Below the pieces are notes generated by a model, which made no database searches, had not been told where the DNA came from, and saw only the letters and a list, made by a program, of their open reading frames with translations. Of a stretch of 64,000 nucleotides of DNA, positions 2,210 to 41,737 are shown in pieces (within the stretch, counting starts at the first letter, position 1; every line of letters begins with the position of its first letter). Source of the DNA: Lampris incognitus (taxonomy: Eukaryota; Chordata; Actinopteri; Lampriformes; Lampridae); NCBI RefSeq assembly GCF_029633865.1, contig NC_079215.1, positions 56,408,856 to 56,472,855 of the forward strand, in the 5' to 3' direction. A program made the position numbers and the translations under genes.

Positions 2210-2423
2210 GGCGGCGCAGTGGTTAGCGCAGTCGCCTCACAGTAAGAACAGCCTGTGTTTGAGCCCCGGGGTAGTCCAACCTTGGGGGTCGCCCCGGGTC
2301 GTCCTCTGTATGGAATTTGCATGTTCTCCCCATGTCTGCTTGGGTTTCCTCCGGGGACTCCGGTTTCCTCCCACAGTCCAAAGACATGTAGGTCAGGTGA
2401 ATCGGCTGTACTAAAGTGTACCT

Positions 2424-2461
<38 letters not shown>

Positions 2462-2532
2462 GCCCTGTGATGGCCTGGCAGCCTGTCCAGGGTGTCTCCC
2501 TGTCTGCTGTGCCAATGCCTGCTGGGATAGGC
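2210..2532 (+). mobile_element. tRNA-derived SINE, family A, with internal (GT)n
   Basis: The head GGCGCAGTGGTTAGCGCAG followed by CGCCTCACAG and a B-box-like TTTGAGCCC is a tRNA-like promoter. The body carries the fish-wide signature TTTGCATGTTCTCCCC and GGTTTCCTCCCACAGTCC, then a (GT)n run at 2427-2459, then GCTGGGATAGGCT. The usual GGAT tail is missing: the copy stops abruptly at the junction with the gypsy pol sequence at about 2533. Other copies are at 45651, 58504 and 59492. Confidence 0.85.
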
Positions 2533-4573
2533 TCGACCAAAGAGCATGATGACAGGGTGCATCAAGTGTTGCAAAGACTGCAGCAGCGGGGCCTAACTCT
2601 GAATGACAAATGTCAGTTCGCAGCGAAGCAGGTCAAATTTCTCGGATACGTTGTCAGTTCAGAGGGCATACAAGCAGATCCTGAGAAGATTAGGGCAATT
2701 AGAGAGATGCCACGACTCAAAGATGTGGCTGATGTAAAACGCTTCATGGGGATGGTCAACTATGTGGGAAAATTCTCTCCTAACATCGCAGCGCTCACTG
2801 GGCCAATCAGAGAACTCCTGAAAGCAGAAAACATGTGGATGTGGGGAGCAGTGCAGCAGTGTGCCTTTGAAAAGGTGAAAAACGAGTTCAGCTCATCTAC
2901 TGTCCTTGCCCATTACAGTCCAGAGAAGCCGACCAGGGTGTCAACAGACGCATCGTCTTACGGATTAGGAGGGGTCTTATCTCAGCTTCAAGAACCTGGA
3001 GACTGGAGGCCAGTGGCTTTCATATCTCGCAGCATGACTGAAACAGAGCGCAGATATGCCCAAATTGAAAAGGAGGCCCTTGCTGTCACCTGGGCTTGCG
3101 AAAGATTTCAGACCCACCTCCTGGGCCTACACTTTGTGATGCGAACCAATCACAAACCGTTGTTCAGACTTCTCAGCTCAAAGCCGCTGGATGACGTCCC
3201 GCCTCGTATAATGTGCTTCAGATTGAGACTTCTGCGTTTTTCCTACTCAATCGTACATGTACCAGGGAAAAATATTATTGCAGTTGACGCTCTATCAAGA
3301 GCTCCACTCCAGCGTACTGCAACAGAGGAAGACCTTGCGCTTCAGAACGACATCACAGCTCAAATCAATAAGGTCATTCAGCAACTCCCGGCCTCACCTG
3401 AGAAGTTGCTACAAATAAGAAGAGCACAAGAAGAAGGTCCAGTGTCTAAGCAGCTGTCCTCCCTGATCCACACAGGATGGGAAAGAAGCAGTTCTGCGCC
3501 ACAGTTAAAGCCTTTCTGGCAATACAGAAACGACCTGTTGATGGTGGATGGCCTGTTGATGAAAGGAAAGAGAATACTGATTCCAGCAAGCATGCAACAG
3601 GACATCTTGGACAAAATTCACCAGGGTCACCAGGGAATAGTGAAGTGCATGGCCAGGGCCCAGGAAGCAGTGTGGTGGCCTGGGCTGACAAAACACATCA
3701 GAGAGAAGGTACGTCAGTGTGAAATTTGTGCTAAAGAGAGTCAAAATGCCACAGAACATCTGATGACCACACCCTTGCCATCACGCCCATGAGAACGGCT
3801 AGCAGCTGACTTATTTGAGTGGAAGAAGGGTCAGTATTTAGTAGTCATTGATTACTATTCAAGATACATTGAGGTTGCCAATTTAACAAGCACTTCAGCA
3901 ACAGCTGCGATTGTGAAAATAAAAGCTATCTTTAGCCATCACGGGGTGCCGGATACACTCGTCACAGACAATGGACCGCAGTTTGCTGCCGCAGAGTTCG
4001 CAGATTTTGCTAAAGATTACAACTTTCAACATATTACCAGTAGCCCCCGTTACCCGCAAAGCAATGAGGAAGCTGAACGTGCAGTAGACTGTGAAATCCT
4101 TGTTGCAGAAGAGTGAGGACCCTCACAAAGCGCTTATGGTGTACAGAGCAACTCCTCTTGCCCATGGAGTATCACCGGCACAGCTCCTGATGGGGCGCAG
4201 CATCCAAACACCCCTTCCGGTGTGTCCACGCACTCTCAAACCAGCAAGGCCAGACTTGAGAGCTTTTGAGTTGAAAGACCAGGAGCTTAAAAGACAACAG
4301 GGTGAAGGATACAACAGATGACATAGAGCACGGGAGACACCACCACTCCAGCCAGGTCAGAGAGTTTGGATACGGAAAGTTCCACACACAGGAGTCGTCT
4401 CTGGATCAGCAGGGACACCACGTTCATACGTAATCCAAACCTCAACAGGCAGTCTCTGAAGAAACCGTTCTCATTTGAGAGTAGTGCCTTCACTGCCTGG
4501 AAGCCAGCCGGACCCTGGACTACACACCAGAGTTGGCAGGGCAGTCAAGCCTGTTAAAAGACTGAATTTGTAG
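2533..4573 (+). pseudogene. Decayed Ty3/gypsy pol (RT C-terminus, RNase H, integrase)
   Basis: The segment starts inside reverse transcriptase (EHDDRVHQVLQRLQQRGL, then VKFLGYVVSSEGI) and continues into RNase H (STDASSYGLGGVLSQ from about 2943; TNHKPL; VDALSRAP). The integrase zinc-binding HHCC region follows (HQGHQG ... CEIC, 3619-3735), then the integrase core (AADLFEW, VTDNGPQF, EEAERAV). At 3790-3792 a TGA replaces an expected Trp codon. Near 4090 a frameshift moves the frame from RAV- to TVKSLLQK. At 4319-4321 a TGA replaces an expected Arg codon, and a further stop occurs near 4459. The C-terminal tail reads on to a TAG at 4571-4573. The N-terminal half of pol is absent, cut at the SINE junction, so the copy is dead. 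Confidence 0.92.
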
Positions 4574-4955
4574 TTTAGTGTTGCGAGTATACACGGAGCA
4601 GGATAACCTACATACCACAACAGAGAGGATCAGGTAGTCTTCCCTACCTCTCAGTTAGGTTATGTACTTGTCTTGATATGTTCATAGGTCAAAAAAAAAA
4701 AGGAAAATGAGATGTGAAATGTGTGTCTAGAGATGAGATGTGAAATGTGTGTCTAGATATGAGATGTGAAATGTGAAGTTCATTTAACCAGTTTACATAT
4801 GCTCACGTTTACAGAGATGTTTAAGGCGCCAGCTGTTCCCCTGCCTTGTTGGTAAAATCAGCATTAGGCTTTATTAACATATAATTTAATTTTTCTGTAA
4901 AGATCCTGAAAGTTTCAGTTCAAAAGGGGGAGATTTAGTGAGCAGGTTTTGATAT
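4574..4955 (+). mobile_element. 3' untranslated part of the gypsy element with polypurine tract and LTR start
   Basis: This non-coding stretch ends with AAAAGGGGGAGA at 4922-4933, a typical polypurine tract used to prime plus-strand synthesis. Directly after it, TTAGTGAGCAGG should be the first bases of the 3' LTR (an original TG start is probably mutated). A 26-bp tandem repeat lies inside (4707-4780). Confidence 0.7.
4707..4780. repeat. 26-bp tandem repeat, 2.7 copies
   Basis: The unit ATGAGATGTGAAATGTGTGT plus CTAGAG occurs at 4707 and 4733 and partly at 4759. It lies in the 3' non-coding part of the gypsy copy. Confidence 0.9.
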
Positions 4956-5370
4956 TGTAGCGAATTCGGGGGGGGGGGCAACCACAGGAACTGCCTCGGC
5001 GCGAACCCGTATCTCCCGCGCTGCGGGAGACATCGCTAACCGCTCGACTGAAGGGTCAGACCGGTCAGCGAGCGGCCAACGTGTCTACTTATCCATGCAC
5101 GTTACCCTACCCCCCCCCCTCCTTCGGGAAGCGCGTCCCGCGCTTAAGCATATCAGCTGCTTCACGCCTCTGGGCGCATACGCTTCCGATGGCCTTACGG
5201 TCTCACCATCCCACTTCTGACACCAATGTAGCGAATTCGGGGGGCGGTCCGGGAACCGCCACAGCCGGGGCGTGAACCCGTGCCTCCCGCTCCGCAAGCG
5301 ACAACGTTAACCAGTCGACTAAAGGGTCCGACCCGTCAGCCAGCGTGTCTACTTATCCATGCACGTTACA
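4956..5370 (-). mobile_element. Complete miniature LTR element (TRIM-like), family B, with tRNA-like LTRs
   Basis: Two LTRs (4956-5106 and 5227-5370) flank a 120-bp internal region. On the minus strand the 5' LTR runs TGTAACGTGCATGG ... TTCGCTACA, followed by the primer-binding site TGGTGTCAGAAGTGGGAT (5208-5225, leucine tRNA). The internal region ends in a purine tract (GAAGGAGGGGGGGGGG) just before the 3' LTR. The duplicated target ATAT is at 4952-4955 and 5371-5374, and removing the element rejoins the gypsy LTR sequence. Each LTR contains an A-box-like TTTAGTCGACTGGTTAACG and a B-box-like GGGTTCACGCCCC. The last base of the LTR at 5106 is C instead of A. The element has no coding capacity and must rely on proteins of another LTR element. 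Confidence 0.85.
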
Positions 5371-5374
5371 ATAT

Positions 5375-10969: not shown

Positions 10970-11498
10970 TATATACCTCGTTATAACAAGTGTTATACCT
11001 CGTTATAGCAAGTGTTATAGCTTGTTATAGCAAGTGTTATACCTCGTTGTAGCAAGTGTTATAGCTTGTTATAGCAAGTGTTATACCTCGTTGTAGCAAG
11101 TGTTATAGCTTGTTATAGCAAGTGTTATACCTCGTTGTAGCAAGTGTTATAGCTTGTTATAGCAAGTGTTATACTTTGTTATAGCAAGTGTTATACCTCG
11201 TTATGGCAAGTGTTATACCTCGTTATAGCAAGTGTTATAGCTTGTTGTAGCAAGTGTTATGCCTCGTTATAGCAAGTGTTATAGCAAGTGTTATACCTCG
11301 TTATAGCAAGTGTTATACATCGTTATAGTAAGTGTTATAGCTTGTTATAGCAAGTGTTATACCTCGTTATGGCAAGTGTTATACCTCGTTATAGCCAGTG
11401 TTATAGCTTGTCACAGCAAGTGTTATACATCGTTATAGCAAGTGTTATAGCTAATTATACCTCGTTATAGCAAGTGTTATAGCTTGTTATAGCAAGTG
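10970..11498. repeat. 22-bp minisatellite with 44-bp higher-order pattern, about 24 copies
   Basis: Two alternating 22-mers, TTATACCTCGTTATAGCAAG+TG and TTATAGCTTGTTATAGCAAG+TG, fill the array. They differ mainly at CCTC/GCTT, giving a 44-bp higher-order unit in part of the array. One unit is shortened near 11280. The shared half TTATAGCAAGTG is highly conserved. Confidence 0.95.
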
Positions 11499-12802: not shown

Positions 12803-12962
12803 TGTAAACTACTAATAAGACACGTTAGTCCCTAGCTAATGGGTCTGACCCTTTAGCCGAGCGGTTAGTGACGTCGCCTTGTGGTGCAGTACACCTCGTA
12901 TCGAATCCCGCACCGGGCAAGAAAATAACCGGTTACATTGGTGGCAGCGGTGGGATCGGGAA
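12803..12962 (+). mobile_element. tRNA-like mini-LTR, family A, with primer-binding site
   Basis: The LTR is 12803-12937 (135 bp, TGTAAACTACT ... GGTTACA). It is followed by TTGGTGGCAGCGGTGGGATC, complementary to the 3' end of AAG/TAG-type leucine tRNAs. About 25 bp of internal sequence match the complete copy at 15655-16189, then similarity stops. The A-box-like TTTAGCCGAGCGGTTAG and B-box-like GTATCGAATCCC are present. It is a truncated TRIM-like element keeping only its 5' end. Confidence 0.8.
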
Positions 12963-13029
12963 GTTTATTGTTGTATGGTTATCTCTCAAACTGGGGATTT
13001 GGTATTCGGATAGTGTAGACAGCTGGAAA

Positions 13030-15137: not shown

Positions 15138-15654
15138 CCTCCCGACGTTGCTTCTCAGGGGGTCTTGTACAAGTCACAGTGAGAGCTACTCGTGTCTGTA
15201 AATCAATATCCCCAAGACCTATCCTGGTCGTCCACTGAGGACAAAACTAATTAGATTTGATTCATTGTCTAGCACGAAAGCCATGGCAGCATCACCTTAG
15301 ATGAAGGACAGTGATTGGTTGCAAGTGCTCTTAACTTATTCCAGATTCTCGTCATTGAGTCCTTGCGCGTATTTACGAGAAGTAACAGCAGCCGGTGCTG
15401 AACCAAGGTGGTGCATTGCACTGTGAATAACATGGCGTGCTGAGAAGCGCAGAGAACTCTGTAGGGCTTCGTGGCGTTCTTCAAATCAAGTGTTCTTTCC
15501 TGCACACATCAGCTCTCTAGAATTAAGCCTCTAGTGAGCTCTTATTTTGGGCAACGCAAGGTAACAACTGATGTGGGAGACATTTCCAAACGTAGAGCAG
15601 GTTCTTTATCAGTGACGTATAATAACCTCTCGCCTGTATGGCGGTCCTAGGTTA

Positions 15655-16189
15655 TGTAACCGGTTATTTTTTTGCCCGGTGCGGGATTCGATCCGTGGTG
15701 TACCGCACCACAAGGCGACGTCACTAACCGCTCGGCTAAAGGGTCGGACCCGTTCGCTAGGGACTAACGTGTCTTATTTGTAGTTCACAGTCGTCACCCT
15801 CTCCCGGAAGCGCGCCCTCGCGTTTTGTTGTTCCCGCGCTCCGAAGAGACTTCTGAGGGTCTGCACACTTCCGGATCCCACCGCTGCCACCAATGTAACC
15901 GGTTATTTTCTTGCCCGGTGTGGGATTCGACCCGGGGTGTACCGCACCACAAGGCGACATCACTAACCGCTCGGCTAAAGGGTCAGACCCGTTAGCTAGG
16001 GGCTAACGTGTCTTATTAGTAGTGTAACGTGCATGGATAAGTAGACACGTTGGTCCTTGACTAACGGGTCGGGCCCTTTAGTCGACTGGTTAACGTTGTC
16101 GCTTGCGGAGCGGGAGACACAGGTTCGCGTCCCGACCATGGCGACGGTTCTCCCAGACTGCCCCCCGATATTCGCTACAGTAGTTTACA
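15655..16189 (-). mobile_element. Complete miniature LTR element (TRIM-like), family A, interrupted by a family B LTR
   Basis: Two 135-bp LTRs (15655-15789; 15894-16022 plus 16184-16189) flank a 104-bp internal region (15790-15893). On the minus strand the 5' LTR starts TGTAAACTACTAATAAGAC and ends GGTTACA. The primer-binding site TGGTGGCAGCGGTGGGAT (15875-15892, leucine tRNA) follows. A purine run GGGAGAGGG lies just before the 3' LTR. The target duplication GTTA is at 15651-15654 and 16190-16193. Both LTRs contain TTTAGCCGAGCGGTTAGTGA and GATCGAATCCC or GGTCGAATCCC, tRNA-like A and B boxes. The LTRs differ at about ten positions, so the insertion is not very recent. There is no coding capacity. 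Confidence 0.88.
16023..16179 (+). mobile_element. Solo LTR of family B, nested in the family A element
   Basis: 157 bp, TGTAACGTGCATGG ... ATTCGCTACA, flanked by a perfect 4-bp duplication GTAG (16019-16022, 16180-16183). Removing it restores the family A LTR end (TTAGTAG+TTTACA). The core has an A-box-like TTTAGTCGACTGGTTAACG, an anticodon-loop-like TTGCGGA between short stems, and a canonical B box GGTTCGCGTCC. A solo LTR forms when the two LTRs of a full element recombine. Confidence 0.88.
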
Positions 16190-17388
16190 GTTACCTCACA
16201 CACCGTGGGTGTCCGACATAAGCCCGTTATAACCCGTTTACCGCTGAGAAGTAATGCTTTTCTCACAAGTACTCCGCAGCGCATCATAGCAAATCACTTA
16301 AGCAAGACCAGAGTCTTGGGGAAATAAGGTCGTTTCCACGTCTCCCTCGGGGGTGAATGAAGTACTCCGATTCTGATTTCGCAAGCCAGTGACCTTTCCC
16401 AACCCAAATTACCCACAATCCCTCTAAAGGGATCATTCGGTGTTTCTTCCTCTGGCGTGCTGCTGGCAGTGGGTTTGCTGGTTGAGAGGAATAAGAGAGA
16501 CACAAGGCCCCACTGGGGAAGATGCTGCCCATCATGTCTACTTGCTTAGCATATTTAGGCTGTCATAAACCACGTGATAATGCTTTAAGAGAGAAATCTA
16601 CAACTGCTGCACCGTTGGAGAGAAAAATCCTTTACACAAGATGTGATTTTGTGACCCCCCCCCCCCCATTGTGAATACCTGCATTTTGAAGGAAATTCAA
16701 AAGCAATATTTGGGAACATTCGCATGTTTACTCGTGAATTTAACTGGGATAATTAGTGCCTGCCTTGCTGGTTTTAAGTCAGGGTTTTCTGTGGTTGCTG
16801 CTGTTTGGTCCTCCTCGTTGGGATTCTGGTCTTGACTTGATAAACCGATCATAGTAAATGACCAGTTTGACAAGAACACAGTTGAGCTCCACACGGCATT
16901 ACAGTTTCAGCAGCCTCTTGGGTCAAATGATGTGAGAACAGCATCAGCACTCGTCCCGGCCCTCTGTGAGCCTCCTGTCATGTGTCCCGCTCACGAGCCG
17001 GACTACAACAGCGGATTGTGGAGGTGCTTTTAGTCCAAGTCTTCCTCTGTCTGGGGAATGGCTGCTGGTTTAGCCGTGGTTCCTACAGCACAGTGAGGTG
17101 TCATGTGACATTTTGGGCATTAACCTATCAGTACACACGTTTTTGACTCCGTGGTAACAGTTTGTGTTGCCCAATATGATTCAAGTTGCACCAAAATGTA
17201 TCACTGCCTGCCAAGGTTGCTCAACAGTCACAAGGCAGGCCTGCATGTACAAGTGGAACACCAAGGCACAAGTTGATCAGTGCCTTTGTAATCACACGTT
17301 CTGCGATCCTGTCTGTGAGAAGAACTATAAGACCTTTACTTGCTGTGTCTATATTCTATATTCTGTCTATGTATGTATATATGTATAT

Positions 17389-17808: not shown

Positions 17809-17889
17809 ATATATATCAACACGGATACAGGAAAGAAGAGACCACTCAACACCATTGACGGTTTCGGAAAAAAATGCTGTGTGTGTATA

Positions 17890-19468
17890 TACACTGCTCA
17901 AAAAAATAAAGGGAACACCTAAAAACACAATATAGACCTCGATGAATGAAATATTTCAGCTGAAAATCTTTATTTATTAGACAGAGGAATGTGTTTAGAG
18001 CAAAATAACCTAAGAATGATCAATGGAAATCAAAATCATTAGCCCATTAAGGTCTGGATTCAGAATCATACTCAAAATCAAAGGGGAAAATGAGAACATA
18101 GGCTGATCCAACTTCTGTGGAAATTCTTCAAGACGATTCAAAATGAGGCTCAGTAGTGTGTGTGGCCTCCACGTGCCTGTATGCACTCCCTACAACGTCT
18201 GGGCATGCTCCTGATGAGACGACGGATGGTCTCCTGAGGGATCTCCTCCCAGACCTGGATCAGGGCATCGGTCAACTCCTGGACAGTCTGTGGTGCGACA
18301 TCGCGTTGGCAGATGGTACGAGACATGATGTCCCAGAGGTGCTCGATTGGATTCAGGTCTGGGGAACGTGCAGGCCAGTCCATAGCATCAATGCCCTCGA
18401 CATACAGGAACTGCTGACACACTCTGGCCACATGAGGACGAGCATTGTCATGCATGAGCAGGAACCCAGGGCCCACTGCACCAGCATATGGTCTGACAAG
18501 GGGTCTGAGGATCTCATCCCGGTACCTAATGGCAGTCAGGGTACCTCTGGCTAGCACGTAGAGGTCTGTACGGCCCTCCAAGGATATGCCTCCCCAGACC
18601 ATCACTGACCCACCGCCAAACCGGTCATGCTGGAGGATGTTGCAGGCAGCAGAACGTTCTCCACAGCGTCTCCAGACTCTCTCACGTCTGTCACATGTGT
18701 TCAGTGTGAACCTGCTCTCATCTGTGAAGAGCACAGGGCGCCAATGGCGAATCTGCCAACCAAGATGTTCTCTGGCAAAGGTCAATCGGGCTGCACAGTG
18801 TTGGGCTGTGAGCACAGGCCCCAATTGTGGACGTCGGGCCCTCATACCATCCTCATGCATTCTGTTTCTCACTGTTTGAGCAGAAAGCTGCACATTAGTG
18901 GCCTGTTGAAGGTCGTTTTGTAGGGCTCCGGCAGTGCTCCTCCTGTTCCTCCTTGCACAAAGGACCAGATAGCAGTCCTGCTGCGGGGTTGTTGTCCTCC
19001 TGCGGCCCCCTCCACGTCTCCTGGTGTACTGGCCTGTCTCCTGGTACCTCCTCCATGCTCTGGACACTGTGCTGGGAGACACATCAAATCTTCTTGCCAC
19101 AGCACGCATTGATGTGCCATCCTGGATGAGCTGCACTACCTGAGCAACTTCTGTAGGTTGCAGATACCGCCTCATGCCCCCTCTAGCGGTGAGGGCACTA
19201 GCAACATGAAAAACTAACCAAAGATCGGCCAGAAAAGATGAGGACAGGCAAATGGTCTGTGGCCACCACCTGCAAATCCATTCCTTTTATAGGGGTTGTC
19301 TTGCAAATTGTCTAATTTCCACCAGGTGGAAATTAGACAATTTACCAACAGGTGAAATTGATTCACAAATCAGTGTTGCTTCCTAACTGGACAGGTTGAT
19401 ATCTCAAAAGTGTGATTGACTTGGAGCTACATTGCATTGCTTATGTGTTCCCTTTATTTTTTTGAGCA

Positions 19469-19471
<3 letters not shown>
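17890..19471 (-). mobile_element. Complete Tc1-like transposon, 1582 bp
   Basis: Termini TAC(AC)TGCTCAAAAAAATAAA + GGGAACAC are inverted at both ends, and TA lies outside each end (17888-17889, 19472-19473). The element contains one uninterrupted transposase gene. A second copy of exactly the same length and strand is at 39674-41255, with roughly 15 differences by eye. Confidence 0.95.
18150..19175 (-). CDS. Tc1/mariner transposase, intact, 341 residues
   Basis: One ATG-to-stop frame. Residues 1-50 form a paired-like helix-turn-helix ([18 protein letters not shown]). Residues 51-60 are a basic GRPR/AT-hook-like stretch ([10 protein letters not shown]). A second DNA-binding unit follows to about 120. 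The catalytic DDE domain has D152 (LFTDESRF), D243 (MHDNARPHV) and E278 (NPIEHLWD), with 34 residues between the last two, the DD34E spacing of Tc1 enzymes. The length fits functional family members (about 340). No frameshift or stop is seen. The enzyme cuts and pastes the flanking inverted repeats at TA sites. Several cysteines (residues 68 and 127) differ from Arg in the sister copy and could weaken it. Transcription would be antisense to sh3pxd2a. Confidence 0.93.
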
Positions 19472-19532
<61 letters not shown>

Positions 19533-19667: not shown

Positions 19668-20183
19668 TGTTGTGGATTTTTCTTATCCTTTTAATGGGCC
19701 CTTGCCCCAGCAACCTCTGGGAAGAATAATCATCAGACAAATATTGGAGAAAACAGACAATCTTTAATGCATCTGCAGATGGAGAGTCATATAGTCACAG
19801 AAGTCAATCTGTGAGGTTGTGCTCTCCCTTGAGCTGGAGGTAGTGGTTTTTTATAGAGCAGTCTGTCGCGTCATACCCTATGTTCCTTGCATTAACCAAG
19901 GTGTTGTCTTACTAAGGAATGCAGGAAAACATCTACGTTAATCATGTCCTGTGTCCGGTGTGTTTCTGTGGGTCCGTTGCACCTGTCTTCGCTGCACCGG
20001 GCAGTTCCTGGGATGTGGCAACGGGGAGGCAAGCGTGATAACAGTTGGTATGTGGCCCCATCGGAGGCAAGCATAACAGTTGATATGTGTGTCTGCAGTG
20101 AGTGAGAAGTTTCATACACACAGAGAAGTGGAAAACTACACAGTACATACGGAGTGCATATGGAGTACATTTTGTACTCCACA
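19668..20183 (-). mobile_element. 3' LTR of the endogenous retrovirus-like element
   Basis: 516 bp; in element sense TGTGGAGTAC ... ATCCACAACA, directly after the polypurine tract. The bases at about 20115-20180 are missing from the other LTR. Confidence 0.85.
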
Positions 20184-20401
20184 ATTCCCCCCTTTTGTTC
20201 ATTATTGAACAACGAGAGCAATAGGTGACATGGAAATAGTGGAAACCAGCACACATATCACGCGCACACAATAATAAAAAGTAACACGCAACTTAGAAAT
20301 AATACAAATCGGCACACATAACATGCATATACAGAAATTATATACAGACATGAGAACAACCGGAAACGAAAGGTTTAACCAGTGCTCGTCATAAAGTATC
20401 A

Positions 20402-20677
20402 TTCAAACGGGGGAGTCGCTGTCATTGGAGGAAGTGTAGGAGGATTCAGAACCGAAGTCCTTGTGGGGGGGGGCGGGGAAGAGGGGAACAGCAGTGGTGG
20501 AGAGGAGGGAGACGAAACAAGGTCCCCATCCTGTTGGGCAAGGAGGTGATAATACACGAGCTGAGTAGCAATGAGGCCGCGTATCACACGCCGAACTATG
20601 GGCACAATGCAGCAGGTGAGGAGTAGCAGGACACCCAGGAAAAGTGGTGCTGCTTCGGCCAGGCGAGTAAAAGACAT
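20402..20677 (-). pseudogene. Env-like transmembrane C-terminus of the retroviral element
   Basis: The minus frame shows a hydrophobic stretch (LFLGVLLLLTCCIVPIV), then a basic RRVIRGLIATQ stretch and a short Pro/Ser-rich tail. That layout is the membrane anchor and cytoplasmic tail of retroviral envelope proteins, and it sits in the right place, just before the polypurine tract and 3' LTR. Upstream it runs into a LINE-1-type ORF1 fragment in another frame, so the ectodomain is lost. Confidence 0.55.
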
Positions 20678-20689
20678 CAGGACCCATTA

Positions 20690-20900
20690 TCTGCATCAGC
20701 ATCTCCGACATGAACTGCACCGGATCTCTACCGGCCGCTCCACCTTCAGGAATGTTCAGTACATGGAGATTGGCCCTCCGAGATCGGTTCTCGAGGTCGT
20801 CGATTCGGTCCTGCAGAGACAGGTTTTGGGTTCGGAGCATTTTGATGGTGGACTCAGCTGCAGTTAAACGTCCAAAGTTGTCACTGGTTACAGACTCCAC
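20690..20900 (-). pseudogene. L1-type ORF1 (transposase-22 family) fragment
   Basis: LQDRIDDLENRSRRANLHVL and NIPEG ... VQFMSEMLMQIMGPDVF are the coiled-coil to RRM junction of LINE-1-like ORF1 proteins. Its end abuts the Env-like tail. It is a foreign piece within the retroviral element. Confidence 0.75.
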
Positions 20901-21300
20901 AGAGGCAAGGCGATTTCAGACTCTCAAAGCCAAACCCAAACCTGTGGTCTCCAGAGCTAGGAAGCTGGTGCTAGTCTCATCTAGACAACCAGAGGGTCTT
21001 CATGTGTGGAGGATTGGCTGGGCCAGGAGCAGACCACCCTCACCTCCTCTCTCACCCGGAAGCTGACCGGGACACCTTAGAGACCACCCTCACACAGACA
21101 CGGCTCCTAAAGCCGCGTTATGTGGCGGGTTGCTCTTTGTTCTGTGCAGCCGGGAGGTTGTCTTCCCGTGGAGCATACCCCGGGCCCCTGGACCCGGTAC
21201 CACGGGAGTGGGGGTGTTACCCAGCTCATCTGGAGGAGGGGGAGGAGCAGGTGGTGACAATATCTGGAGGGAGAAACTTTCAGAGAGAAACTGCACAACA

Positions 21301-23071
21301 CTGAAAACACTGTCATTCTAGGATCCTGAAGATTCGTAGTCAACTTGATTCAGTGTTCTTCAGATACTTCCGCTATGATCCAGGTTCGTATCCGTTTGCT
21401 TCTTATGAGGTAAAAAATCAAAGAAAACTGTACAGAAGAAGGCTCACAACCGTTCTAGATTTCAATTCCTCAAAATCAAAGAAAACTGTACAGAAGAAGG
21501 CGCACAACCATTCTAGATTTCAATTCCTCATTCCCACTACCCCTCGTTTTACACAAGAACAGAACACATTGTGTCAACCCATTTAACCATGAAGAACAAA
21601 AATGAAATTAGGATATGATCAGTTTGTATGTTAGTTGTTAGTAAACCACAAACAATTTCAAGCAGTGAAATGAATCTGACTTTCATTTCATCCAAGCTGT
21701 TTACAAATGTTCTGAAGTCTGTAATGTTGTAGTTATCTGAAATAAATTCTATTTAAAACTAAAACAGACGAGGGATAATAAAGATAGTTGTTGTCTCAGA
21801 TCCTGAACGTCCAAATAAAACCTAAATTAATAAAATCATAAGGTATCTTGTAAATCATTGAAACAATGAGCTGTTTGAAGACAAGAAACAAATGCCCCCC
21901 ACCTTAACTAAATGAAACAACAAGAAGCCCCTTTCAAGGCCCCAAAAAGAGGGGCGGTGGGGTTTCAAAGGAAAGAAACACTCAATGAACAATACAAAGA
22001 AATTGATGTACCCAGCCAAAACCAAATAAATCAAACCAAAAATGAGTCTTATGAGGAGGCTCAAACTCATGGTAAAAAATAACACAAACATAGCCGTAGC
22101 ATAAACATTTAAAACACATGACTCAGTAGGTTTCATTCATATTCAAATAAAATGTAATTGTCCTCCACACAAGAAATTGTCAAAGAAATGAATACCCTCT
22201 AAAAAAAAAAATCCTAAAATTCACACCTTAGTGTTGAAAAACAAAACAAGTTCAATTTAACACAGAGGTAAGTCAACATAAAACAAATGAAGCAATGGAT
22301 GTCTTCTAATGGAAAGAAAAACAACAGCTTAACAACATAACTGTGGTGTACATTGTCCCTGTTACTCTCAAGGCAACCCCCCATCCCCCCAAGGTGTGAA
22401 GTGGGTAGGCAGTTGGTTCCCACCAGTTATTCTTAAAAATCTCAGTAACAGAAAGAAAAACAGAATAAATAAAATGAAAATATTGCAACTGTGGCGTTGG
22501 ACATAACAGAGTTCTGCTTAACAGTTCAGAAAATGAAACAGGAACAGGAAATCCTTCGGTTTAGGGGAATCCTAAGAGAAGTGAGGACAGGATCAACTTA
22601 AAGTGAAAAATACACCACAAAAACTTTTTCAATGTAAAAAAACAAAAAAACAAATGGATATATCACATTTTAAATGAGGTACCTCAGAAAGAAAAGAAAT
22701 AGATTTCTTGAAAGGATTTGAATAATCAATGCTTCAGGTCGGTGACTTTCTAAAGCCAGTTGTTAATCAAACAGGAACAAAAACAGGGTTGGGTCTGGTA
22801 CGGATGCTAAACGAGGTGGTCTCCGAAAAACCCCTCTCACACCCCAATTGTCAGGAAAACAAAAGGTTTGGAAGAGCCAAAACAAAACCTCCCCCAGCTT
22901 TTATATCCCCATTTAAGCCACTCTCAAGGACTTGCAACTTCTGAACAACACAAAATGGCCAGACGGACAAACACCACAGAACAAACTATGAACACACACA
23001 CAGACAGACAAGTCATGTCAAACACAGAAGCCAGTCAGGGTCAGTCAAGGTGCGGTTTGGTACCAATGGTT
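21301..23071. other. AT-rich non-coding interior of the retroviral element
   Basis: No conserved domain is seen. A 58-bp duplication occurs at 21414-21530. The region may be another nonautonomous insertion, but I could not find its ends. Confidence 0.4.
21414..21530. repeat. 58-bp direct duplication
   Basis: AAAATCAAAGAAAACTGTAC at 21414 recurs at 21472 and the copies match closely for 58 bp. Confidence 0.95.
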
Positions 23072-23362
23072 TCATGTCATAGTCCTCTGTAGCTTTTCTC
23101 TTTCCCTACTTTCACGCTCTTTCTCCCACATTCCCAACATTCTTCCTTGCTCTGCCACATACTCCAACCATGTTGTAGGAATCTTTTCCCTTTCTAAGAC
23201 CTTCGCTTTTCCCTTTTCCATGGACTGTCGGACTTCCATTAGTTTATTCTTGCTCAAAGTTCCTTCAACAGGAAACCCATGATCCTGTATCCAGTCTAAA
23301 ACATGTTTTACCGAGTCTTCACCATATTTCCTTATCATTATCTGGTAGATCGCACCCTCCAT
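23072..23362 (-). pseudogene. Gag-like N-terminal frame of the retroviral element (tentative)
   Basis: A 96-codon open frame begins about 380 bp after the primer-binding site and is rich in Lys/Glu, with a KYGEDSVKHVLDWIQDHGF segment. Its position is where retroviral gag starts, but no conserved motif allows a firm call, and the frame stops early. Confidence 0.4.
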
Positions 23363-23740
23363 ATCTATCGGGGGCAGTTTACTGCCCTTGTTTCTTTTCT
23401 TTTTCTTTTTTTTTTCCTCCTAGTTTTTTTTTCTTTACTTAATCCTACCAGGTAACCACTCTGATTAGTGCGAGACCGAGGGTAAACAGCCGCATTATTA
23501 TCGTCAGTGCACGACCTCATACGCGTTTTAAATGATCATTTTATCATTTAAAGAATCCTGCTTACCCGTGCGATGAATCTCCCAGGGTTTTGCTGAGGAA
23601 TCTCGGCGACACCGACCAAACGGACCACCCGCCTCTCCCTTTCTTCCTCTCAAACCTGCTGAGGTTATTGGGAGATCGGTGACTATGTCCTCGTCCCGAG
23701 ATGATCAGTCAGCCGGTTGTCCGTTGGCGAGCGACGTGAG

Positions 23741-23758
23741 ATCCCACTTCTGACACCA
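23741..23758 (-). other. Primer-binding site (tRNA-Leu) of the retroviral element
   Basis: TGGTGTCAGAAGTGGGAT in element sense, three bases inside the 5' LTR end; identical to those at 841-858 and 5208-5225. Confidence 0.8.
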
Positions 23759-23761
23759 AAT

Positions 23762-24215
23762 TGTTGTGGATTTTTCTTATCCTTTTAATGGGCCCTTGCC
23801 CCAGCAACCTCTGGGAGGAATAATCATCGGACAAATATTGGAGCAAACAGAGAATCTTTAATGCATCTGCAGATGGAGAGACATATAACCACAGAAAAGT
23901 CAGTCTGTGAGGATGTGCTCTCACTTGAGCTGGAGGTAGTGGTTTTTTATAGAGCAGTCCGTCGCCTCATACCCTATGTTCCTTGCATTAACCAAGGTGT
24001 TGTCTTACAGAGGAATGCAGGAAAACATCTACGTTAATCATGTCCTGTGTCCGGTGTGTTTCTGTGGGTCCGTTGCACCTGTCTTCGCTGCACCGGGCAG
24101 TTCCTGGGATGCGGCAACGGGGAGGCAAGCGTGATAACAGTTGGTATGTGGCCCCATCGGAGGCAAGCATGATAACATTTGGTATGTGTGTCTGCAGTGA
24201 GTGAGAAGTTTCACA
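23762..24215 (-). mobile_element. 5' LTR of the endogenous retrovirus-like element, shortened
   Basis: 454 bp; it matches the 3' LTR except that about 66-70 bp of the U3 start are absent. In element sense it begins TGTGAAACTTCTC and still abuts the ATAG duplication. Confidence 0.85.
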
Positions 24216-39060: not shown

Positions 39061-39673
39061 ATATGACAGATAAATACATACATATGCGCAACTTTGCATC
39101 AGTGCAGACAATCTGATAATATGCTCAGCACGTCAGTCAAAGTCCAGATAGTTCAAGGTGGACCATTAGGTAAAATGAACTCATTGTTATTCAGAAGAGA
39201 AGTGTTTTGGACCAAAACCTTGGACATGCTGGCTCCAAAAGGGTTAAACGGGGACTTTGACTTGCGGCCATTTCTGTACTGAGTCTCTTGTGTAAGCTCT
39301 CTGTGGCCAGTCTCCTCTATTAACCAGTTTTGTGTACATATATTTTTGATATACCCTGTGTCTTTTTGATTGCTCTGATGTTGACATTATATCCTCTGCT
39401 TGTGGGTTATATATATATATATATGCCATTCAATATTGCCACCTTTTGAGATTAGCAGAGGCACTCCTAATAAGCTAGGACAGTGGTTCTCAACCTTTTT
39501 GGGGTCCTGGACCCCCTGCGTATTTTTGATCTACCCTGAGGACTCCTCCACCTGATCTTGGGGGAGGGGGGTTGCAATTTGATAGAAACAGTAGAAACTG
39601 CATTTTAAATTGCATTATAGCATTTATTCACTCTTTGGGGCAAAAATAAGAGCTTTCATTTGTAACTTAGATA

Positions 39674-41255
39674 TACACTGCTCAAAAAAATAAAGGGAAC
39701 ACCTAAAAACACAATATAGACCTCGATGAATGAAATATTTCAGCTGAAAATCTTTATTTATTAGACAGAGGAATGTGTTTAGAGCAAAATAACCTAAGAA
39801 TGATCAATGGAAATCAAAATCATTAGCCCATTAAGGTCTGGATTCAGAATCATACTCAAAATCAAAGTGGAAAATGAGAACATAGGCTGATCCAACTTCT
39901 GTGGAAATTCTTCAAGACGATTCAAAATGAGGCTCAGTAGTGTGTGTGGCCTCCACGTGCCTGTATGCACTCCCTACAACGTCTGGGCATGCTCCTGATG
40001 AGACGACGGATGGTCTCCTGAGGGATCTCCTCCCAGACCTGGATCAGGGCATCGGTCAACTCCTGGACAGTCTGTGGTGCGACATCGCGTTGGCGGATGG
40101 TACGAGACATGATGTCCCACAGGTGCTCGATTGGATTCAGGTCTGGGGAACGTGCAGGCCAGTCCATAGCATCAATGCCCTCGACATACAGGAACTGCTG
40201 ACACACTCTGGCCACATGAGGACGAGCATTGTCATGCATGAGCAGGAACCCAGGGCCCACTGCACCAGCATATGGTCTGACAATGGGTCTGAGGATCTCA
40301 TCCCGGTACCTAATGGCAGTCATGGTACCTCTGGCTAGCACGTAGAGGTCTGTGCGGCCCTCCAAGGATATGCCTCCTCAGACCATCACTGACCCACCGC
40401 CAAACCGGTCATGCTGGAGGATGTTGCAGGCAGCAGAACGTTCTCCACAGCGTCTCCAGACTCTCTCACGTCTGTCACATGTGTTCAGTGTGAACCTGCT
40501 CTCATCTGTGAAGAGCACAGGGCGCCAATGGCGAATCTGCCAACCAAGATGTTCTCTGGCAAAGGTCAATCGGGCTGCACGGTGTTGGGCTGTGAGCACA
40601 GGCCCCAATTGTGGACGTCGGGCCCTCATACCATCCTCATGCATTCTGTTTCTCACTGTTTGAGCAGAAACCTGCACATTAGTGGCCTGTTGAAGGTCGT
40701 TTTGTAGGGCTCCGGCAGTGCTCCTCCTGTTCCTCCTTGCACAAAGGACCAGATAGCGGTCCTGCTGCGGGGTTGTTGTCCTCCTGCGGCCCCCTCCACG
40801 TCTCCTGGTGTACTGGCCTGTCTCCTGGTACCTCCTCCATGCTGTGGACACTGTGCTGGGAGACACATCAAATCTTCTTGCCACAGCACGCATTGATGTG
40901 CCATCCTGGATGAGCTGCACTACCTGAGCAACTTCTGTAGGTTGCAGATACCGCCTCATGCCACCTCTAGCGGTGAGGGCACTAGCAACATGAAAAACTA
41001 ACCAAAGATCGGCCAGAAAAGATGAGGACAGGCAAATGGTCTGTGGCCACCACCTGCAAATCCATTCCTGTTATAGGGGTTGTCTTGCAAATTGTCTAAT
41101 TTCCACCTGGTGGAAATGAGACAATTTACCAACAGGTGAAATTGATTCACAAATCAGTGTTGCTTCCTAACTGGACAGGTTGATATCTCAAAAGTGTGAT
41201 TGACTTGGAGCTACATTGCATTGCTTATGTGTTCCCTTTATTTTTTTGAGCAGTA
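39674..41255 (-). mobile_element. Tc1-like transposon, second copy, 1582 bp
   Basis: Same length, ends and orientation as 17890-19471, with TA on both sides (39672-39673, 41256-41257). It sits inside the hAT element. The roughly 15 differences by eye include one that stops the transposase. Confidence 0.95.
39934..40959 (-). pseudogene. Tc1 transposase with one nonsense change
   Basis: Matches the intact gene at 18150-19175 codon for codon, but Trp194 (VMVW|GGI) is changed to a stop at 40378-40380. The two halves, 193 and 143 residues from their first Met, are otherwise open. All three catalytic residues are still encoded; the first lies before the stop and the others after it. Confidence 0.95.
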
Positions 41256-41737
41256 TAGTTAACAAAACAGAATTCTTATGCAGTAACTTTCAGATATATG
41301 TAACAAAACAGAATATGTATTCAGTAACTTTCAGATATATGTAACAACAGAATTTTTATGCAGTAACTTTTAACAATGCAAACGGGAGCGAGATCTCTTA
41401 TTAAAATACAATAAATTACACTTGTGAAACAGATGTAATTAGAGAAAAAAGTCCTGTTACCCTTTATAGTTTAGGTAGATAAAGGTCTCAGTCACATTTG
41501 AGTAAAATAATCCTATTTCTATAAATGTCATAGGATCTTTTTTTAAAGATATTTTATTTTCACGGACCCCTTGCAATTACACCACGGACCACTAGGGGTC
41601 CGCGGACCCCCGGTTGAGAAACACTGAGCTAGGATACATTTTCCTTATTTTCCTTTTCTTTCTATCTTGTTATTACATTATGATGGTTCATACCTGATAC
41701 TCTAGTCATGTGATATTTAAGTTCTGATTTAGCTCAG

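Follow-up and report, generated by a model that had tools for sequence, protein, structure and literature searches.

The minus strand at positions 15655–16189 of the 64-kb stretch of DNA analysed here (the window) carries a complete miniature LTR element whose 535-bp span includes a nested insertion. We regard this locus as a non-autonomous TRIM of the Helenus/TRIMp3 kind (family A) into which an LTR of a second family (family B) inserted later. Membership of that class, taken alone, can be held with high confidence. The whole reading, in which these elements also use RNA polymerase III (Pol III), we consider probable, and we hold it at that lower level because the family B data are weaker and because the boxes could be fossils. 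An earlier note on this DNA had proposed an animal family of TRIMs whose LTR carries a tRNA-like core with boxes A and B and can be transcribed by Pol III; such a family remains the best reading, and its transcription by Pol III is inferred. The locus provides an independent case of the Helenus layout recognized from raw sequence, in which a member of one sister family sits inside a member of the other.

Structure of the family A element

The two LTRs are 135 bp long each, have TG...CA ends in the sense orientation and are identical at 125 of 135 positions; a divergence of 7.4% (10/135) indicates that this copy of the element is not young. They enclose an interior of 104 bp, into which any retrotransposon gene would not fit. 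The primer-binding site (PBS), one base from the 5′ LTR, is complementary at 18/18 positions to the 3′ end of tRNA-Leu-AAG, on the basis of a sequence labelled tRF-Leu-AAG in PMC9161985, and a GTTA duplication lies outside the element on both sides. The description in the earlier note stands on all of these points, namely the length and ends of the LTRs, the size of the interior, the leucine-tRNA PBS and the outer duplication. Its length of 378 bp fits if one 4-bp duplication is included, the element measuring 374 bp without the nested insert and the duplications; similarly, the purine run that it placed before the 3′ LTR is real, albeit ending 7 bases short of it. The features are listed in Table 1.

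Four family A LTRs at three places and three family B LTRs at two places were found in the window. In the second family A copy, a full LTR is followed by a PBS matching at 18/18 positions and by the first 27 interior bases, after which the sequence is unrelated; at the third, a degenerate remnant (1458–1578), neither a duplication nor a PBS was seen. The earlier note had allowed that the LTR might be only the end of a long autonomous element, or that the boxes might be absent from the family consensus. Within the 64 kb, two-LTR miniature copies do exist, one of family A and one of family B, and A and B boxes recur in the other copies, although their quality varies. All three copies with both ends present are flanked by 4-bp duplications (GTTA, GTAG and ATAT); ATAT, being AT-rich and of low complexity, is weaker evidence of a target duplication.

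Table 1. Positions in the window of the family A and family B elements and of their parts
Feature	Position	Strand	Remarks
Family A element
Target-site duplication GTTA, left copy	15651–15654		
3′ LTR	15655–15789	minus	135 bp, TG...CA
Box B GGATCGAATCC in 3′ LTR	15684–15694	minus	10/11 to GGTTCGANTCC
Box A TAGCCGAGCGG in 3′ LTR	15728–15738	minus	11/11 to TRGYNNARNGG
Internal region	15790–15893	minus	104 bp
Purine run GGGAGAGGG, candidate polypurine tract	15797–15805	minus	7 bases from 3′ LTR
Primer-binding site TGGTGGCAGCGGTGGGAT	15875–15892	minus	one base from 5′ LTR
5′ LTR, sense bases 7–135	15894–16022	minus	
Box B GGGTCGAATCC in 5′ LTR	15923–15933	minus	
Box A TAGCCGAGCGG in 5′ LTR	15967–15977	minus	
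5′ LTR, sense bases 1–6	16184–16189	minus	beyond nested insert
Target-site duplication GTTA, right copy	16190–16193		
Nested family B solo LTR
GTAG duplication, left copy	16019–16022		
Solo LTR	16023–16179	plus	157 bp, TG...CA; opposite orientation to family A
Box A	16079–16089	plus	
Box B	16122–16132	plus	
GTAG duplication, right copy	16180–16183		
Two-LTR family B element
Element	4956–5370	minus	415 bp
3′ LTR	4956–5105	minus	150 bp, without TG start
Interior	5106–5226	minus	
Primer-binding site TGGTGTCAGAAGTGGGAT	5208–5225	minus	
5′ LTR	5227–5370	minus	144 bp
ATAT duplications	5371–5374 and 4952–4955		
Other family A copies
Second copy	12803–12964	plus	full 135-bp LTR, PBS and first 27 interior bases, then unrelated sequence
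Third copy	1458–1578	plus	degenerate LTR remnant

The promoter-like core of the LTRs

Boxes were scored against the consensus patterns TRGYNNARNGG (box A) and GGTTCGANTCC (box B). In both LTRs of the family A element box A agrees at 11/11 positions and box B at 10/11, and 33 bases separate them (44 from start to start); the earlier note had correctly placed the boxes in each LTR but had set them about 50 bp apart. For each of these two LTRs, none of 1000 shuffles matched the box pair, and over the four family A LTRs the score of the pair was reached in 0, 0, 2 and 3 per 1000 dinucleotide shuffles. The corresponding figures for the three family B LTRs are 0, 35 and 30. The modest pairs (30–35 of 1000 shuffles) are those of both LTRs of the copy at 4956–5370, whose 5′ LTR constitutes weak evidence because its best-scoring pair takes a different, more distant box A. 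Boxes A and B can nonetheless be aligned, with varying quality, in all seven LTR copies. Thirteen box-pair rows scoring at least 20/22 occur in the window, six in these LTRs and seven in or at the edge of a single dispersed repeat whose head is SINE-like.

Box A is exact in three of the four family A LTRs and carries one change in the fourth, where it ends in CAG; that of family B begins TAGTC or CAGTC. As for box B, TCGAATCC is kept in 4/4 family A LTRs, the departures from the consensus being confined to positions 1–3, and the motif GGTTC is present in none of these four and in all three family B LTRs.

Judging from its sequence, the LTR core is promoter-like rather than a tRNA. ARAGORN (bacterial settings) predicted no tRNA genes, and the Rfam tRNA model found no match at the gathering threshold in the window, at E 1 in the locus or at E 10 in the 3′ LTR; the two matches listed for the 3′ LTR at E 10 are unrelated and far below the cut-off. 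Compared with shuffles, there is no excess of folding stability (z −0.32 for family A and 0.40 for family B). Accordingly, what the earlier note called a tRNA-like core is confirmed for the A and B boxes and fails at the level of the Rfam tRNA model, so that a tRNA-derived LTR, as a class feature, is seen in the promoter boxes alone. No 5S match appeared in the Rfam scans of the window, the locus and the 3′ LTR. An exact box A core was found in none of the viral and prokaryote contigs scanned, as expected for an animal repeat, and a 17-base word of the LTR core, sought on either strand, was not found in the main text of the full-text papers searched.

At 15971–16092 the LTRs of family A and family B, which run in opposite orientations, together form a long hairpin with a mir-584 score below the cut-off. 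A microRNA gene was considered here and rejected: the match reaches 41.8 bits against a curated cut-off of 80 and extends over the inverted repeat that the two LTRs create. This calls for some caution in annotation, since such LTRs can pass for SINEs and an inverted pair of them scores weakly as a microRNA hairpin.

The nested insertion and family B

The 535-bp span contains a second TRIM piece that is absent from the earlier note, a solo LTR of family B. It accounts, together with one copy of its GTAG duplication, for 161 extra bases (157 of them the LTR), and its insertion point lies six bases into the 5′ LTR of family A. The two-LTR family B copy (4956–5370) has LTRs with only about 76% identity to each other, the 5′ one being nearer to the nested solo LTR (84%), from which we conclude that this copy is either very old or recombinant. 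Near its 3′ LTR the interior has a G-rich run, longer than the purine run of family A. Its PBS, TGGTGTCAGAAGTGGGAT, presumably corresponds to another leucine tRNA. The complement of this PBS occurs among tRNA fragments given without an amino-acid label in PMC12025293. A further exact copy of this type of PBS lies at 841–858 on the minus strand, and the sequence preceding it could be the end of an LTR.

When the LTRs of the two families are aligned and identity is taken in ten-column blocks, with the final eight columns left unscored, columns 21–30 are 84% and columns 41–70, around box A, 72–84% identical, as compared with 55% for the block of box B (101–110) and 0–38% for columns 1–20 and 111–150. 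In this alignment box B is thus less well kept than box A. The interiors have in common the zone of the PBS and a block of 30 columns that ends in the purine run (1/1000 shuffles reaches its score), and the nine-base run of family A, GGGAGAGGG, sits in this alignable block. A single TRIM is thus the most likely ancestor of the two families, the zones of box A, PBS and purine run being the best kept. Such a pattern fits the use of these parts, although common ancestry by itself might account for part of it.

Relation to known elements

The class is an already named one. As set out in Kojima 2024 (PMC10886601), Helenus elements are TRIMs with a tRNA-derived sequence in the LTR, and TRIMp3 is that author's name for the group of TRIMs with a Pol III promoter. 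The hosts given there are fungi, six animal phyla and one plant; among vertebrates they are cypriniform fishes, a catfish, milkfish, sterlet, paddlefish and coelacanth. Animal Helenus elements make 4-bp duplications, and those of vertebrates have tRNA-His, -Leu or -Lys as primers. The screen was for lengths under 1000 bp, and the lengths reported are 311–1263 bp. The same paper finds the box A pattern in ‘most’ elements, calls the GGTTC of box B ‘conserved’, and states that Pol III use by Helenus was not validated. Helenus elements are also mentioned in a 2026 meeting report (PMC12859917).

Families A and B resemble these elements, as characterized in PMC10886601, in having two LTRs and no genes at lengths of 374 and 415 bp, within the reported range, tRNA-like A and B boxes in each LTR (7/7 copies here), a PBS beside the 5′ LTR that is complementary to the 3′ end of a tRNA, with a leucine primer, 4-bp duplications (3/3 copies here), and solo LTRs and several families in one genome. 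A candidate counterpart of the polypurine tract of Helenus is the nine-base run 7 bases from the family A 3′ LTR. They differ from the published description in the box B of family A, which lacks the reported GGTTC, and in the nesting at one site of two sister families whose PBS sequences differ. Four of the Helenus features tested thus agree, and two, the boxes with their departures from consensus and the purine run with its distance from the LTR, fit less clearly. Both families may already be catalogued. Should intact copies of such elements be found, they would open the claim of a Pol III-driven animal TRIM to direct assay.

Two other elements offer a useful comparison, here as portrayed in PMC10886601. 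Cassandra is likewise gene-free, with the Pol III promoter of a small-RNA gene inside the LTR; however, it is a plant element with a 5S-derived promoter, and families A and B are without a 5S match. In addition, the 5S part of the LTR contains both the start and the end of Cassandra RNA; A and B, in contrast, have no TTTT in sense. Ajax, a nemertean TRIM with a partial 5S sequence, shares the TRIMp3 layout and a Leu-tRNA primer but differs in its 5S-derived promoter and its 5-bp duplications.

Proposed replication cycle

Given the LTR boxes, families A and B may be transcribed by Pol III. TFIIIC would bind boxes A and B of the 5′ LTR, and Pol III would start just upstream of box A. The RNA would then extend across the interior and 3′ LTR and end beyond the latter, so that whatever LTR sequence follows the start site would be present at both ends. 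Such a read-through transcript would retain the repeat that strand transfer requires. A leucine tRNA would prime minus-strand synthesis at the PBS observed, and the enzymes for copying and integration would be supplied by an autonomous LTR element, probably of the Gypsy type; such a partner is suggested by the 4-bp duplications and by an argument made in PMC10886601. Integration probably proceeds via a 4-bp staggered cut, as the duplications indicate, and recombination between LTRs would leave solo LTRs, of which the nested family B copy may be an example.

As regards termination, TTTT is missing from the sense strand of all seven LTRs and of the two interiors, while the antisense strand of family A has four, one and one in its three pieces. 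Downstream of the family A copy, a check of 255 bases found none, and the first one downstream of the family B copy at 4956–5370 is at +31. In sequences this short, the lack of sense TTTT may be due to chance. It is tempting to speculate that A and B form a fish Helenus lineage distinct from those published, whose Pol III RNA has no internal terminator, ends in flanking DNA and needs read-through past the 3′ LTR, in contrast to Cassandra with its terminator in the LTR; we advance this as a decidedly tentative idea, which is rather unlikely to be correct as it stands.

Alternative explanations

Three further observations count against the preferred reading: the absence of GGTTC from the box B of family A, the 55% identity of the box B block between families, and the distance of the purine run from the LTR. 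It has to be weighed against a conventional TRIM, driven by Pol II, in which a piece of a tRNA or SINE survives in the LTR as a fossil, with boxes no longer used. The lack of a tRNA model match and of excess folding stability would be expected under this explanation, as would a family A box B that is off consensus within its first three positions, and the age of the copy implied by its 7.4% LTR divergence. Fossil boxes would, on the other hand, fit poorly with a box A that is exact in three of the four family A LTRs and altered once in the fourth, with the conservation of TCGAATCC in 4/4 box B sequences, and with the place of the box A zone among the best-kept parts between the two families. 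We consider this explanation unlikely on balance, though deserving of serious attention.

It could also be argued that these LTRs belong to the ends of a longer, autonomous and gene-bearing element, as the copy at 12803–12964, which retains only an LTR and 27 interior bases, would allow. That each of the two families has a miniature copy with both LTRs in the window, of 374 bp and 415 bp, makes this very improbable; moreover, the long LTR pair nearby (19668–24213), which has a B-type PBS, has LTRs without a match to family A or B.

Finally, the element might be mistaken for two copies of a tRNA-derived SINE (SINE2) lying side by side. Such SINEs have a head with boxes A and B, and a 24-base stretch around box A is identical at 20/24 positions to the head of the SINE-like repeat in the window (0/1000 mononucleotide shuffles reach this score, which is the best of 25 pairs scored). 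Yet SINEs of this kind are without LTRs or PBS and are mobilized by LINEs, and here the TG...CA ends, the 18/18 PBS adjoining the LTR, the same orientation of the two LTRs with the duplication outside them, and the recurrence of this layout in a second family render this explanation scarcely credible. A SINE origin of the tRNA-like core alone was considered as well and was not retained: the 20/24 match is suggestive, but its shuffles preserved mononucleotide content only, it is the best of 25 pairs, and descent of both sequences from tRNAs could account for it.

Other elements in the window

The long LTR element at 19668–24213, on the minus strand, has LTRs of about 450 bp that are 95% identical and the same PBS sequence as family B. 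It was considered as the autonomous partner of families A and B but is not claimed as such: leaving the PBS aside, four comparisons between its internal ends and the interiors of A and B yielded matches of only 7–12 bases. A fragment of a Gypsy pol gene lies at 2401–3792; among the best 12 of its 1937 matches eight are species-named, and all eight are from ray-finned fish, with bivalves and others also appearing among the best 120. This suggests a fish as the probable host, although a mobile gene gives such evidence only indirectly. Two copies of a Tc1-like transposon, at 17887–19473 and 39671–41257, are 99% identical over 1587 bp. The former has an open transposase frame of 378 codons; in the latter the frame is split into two adjoining ORF pieces and is thus interrupted. 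At 10972–11498 there is a tandem array of 22-bp units with higher-order periods of 44 and 66 bp.
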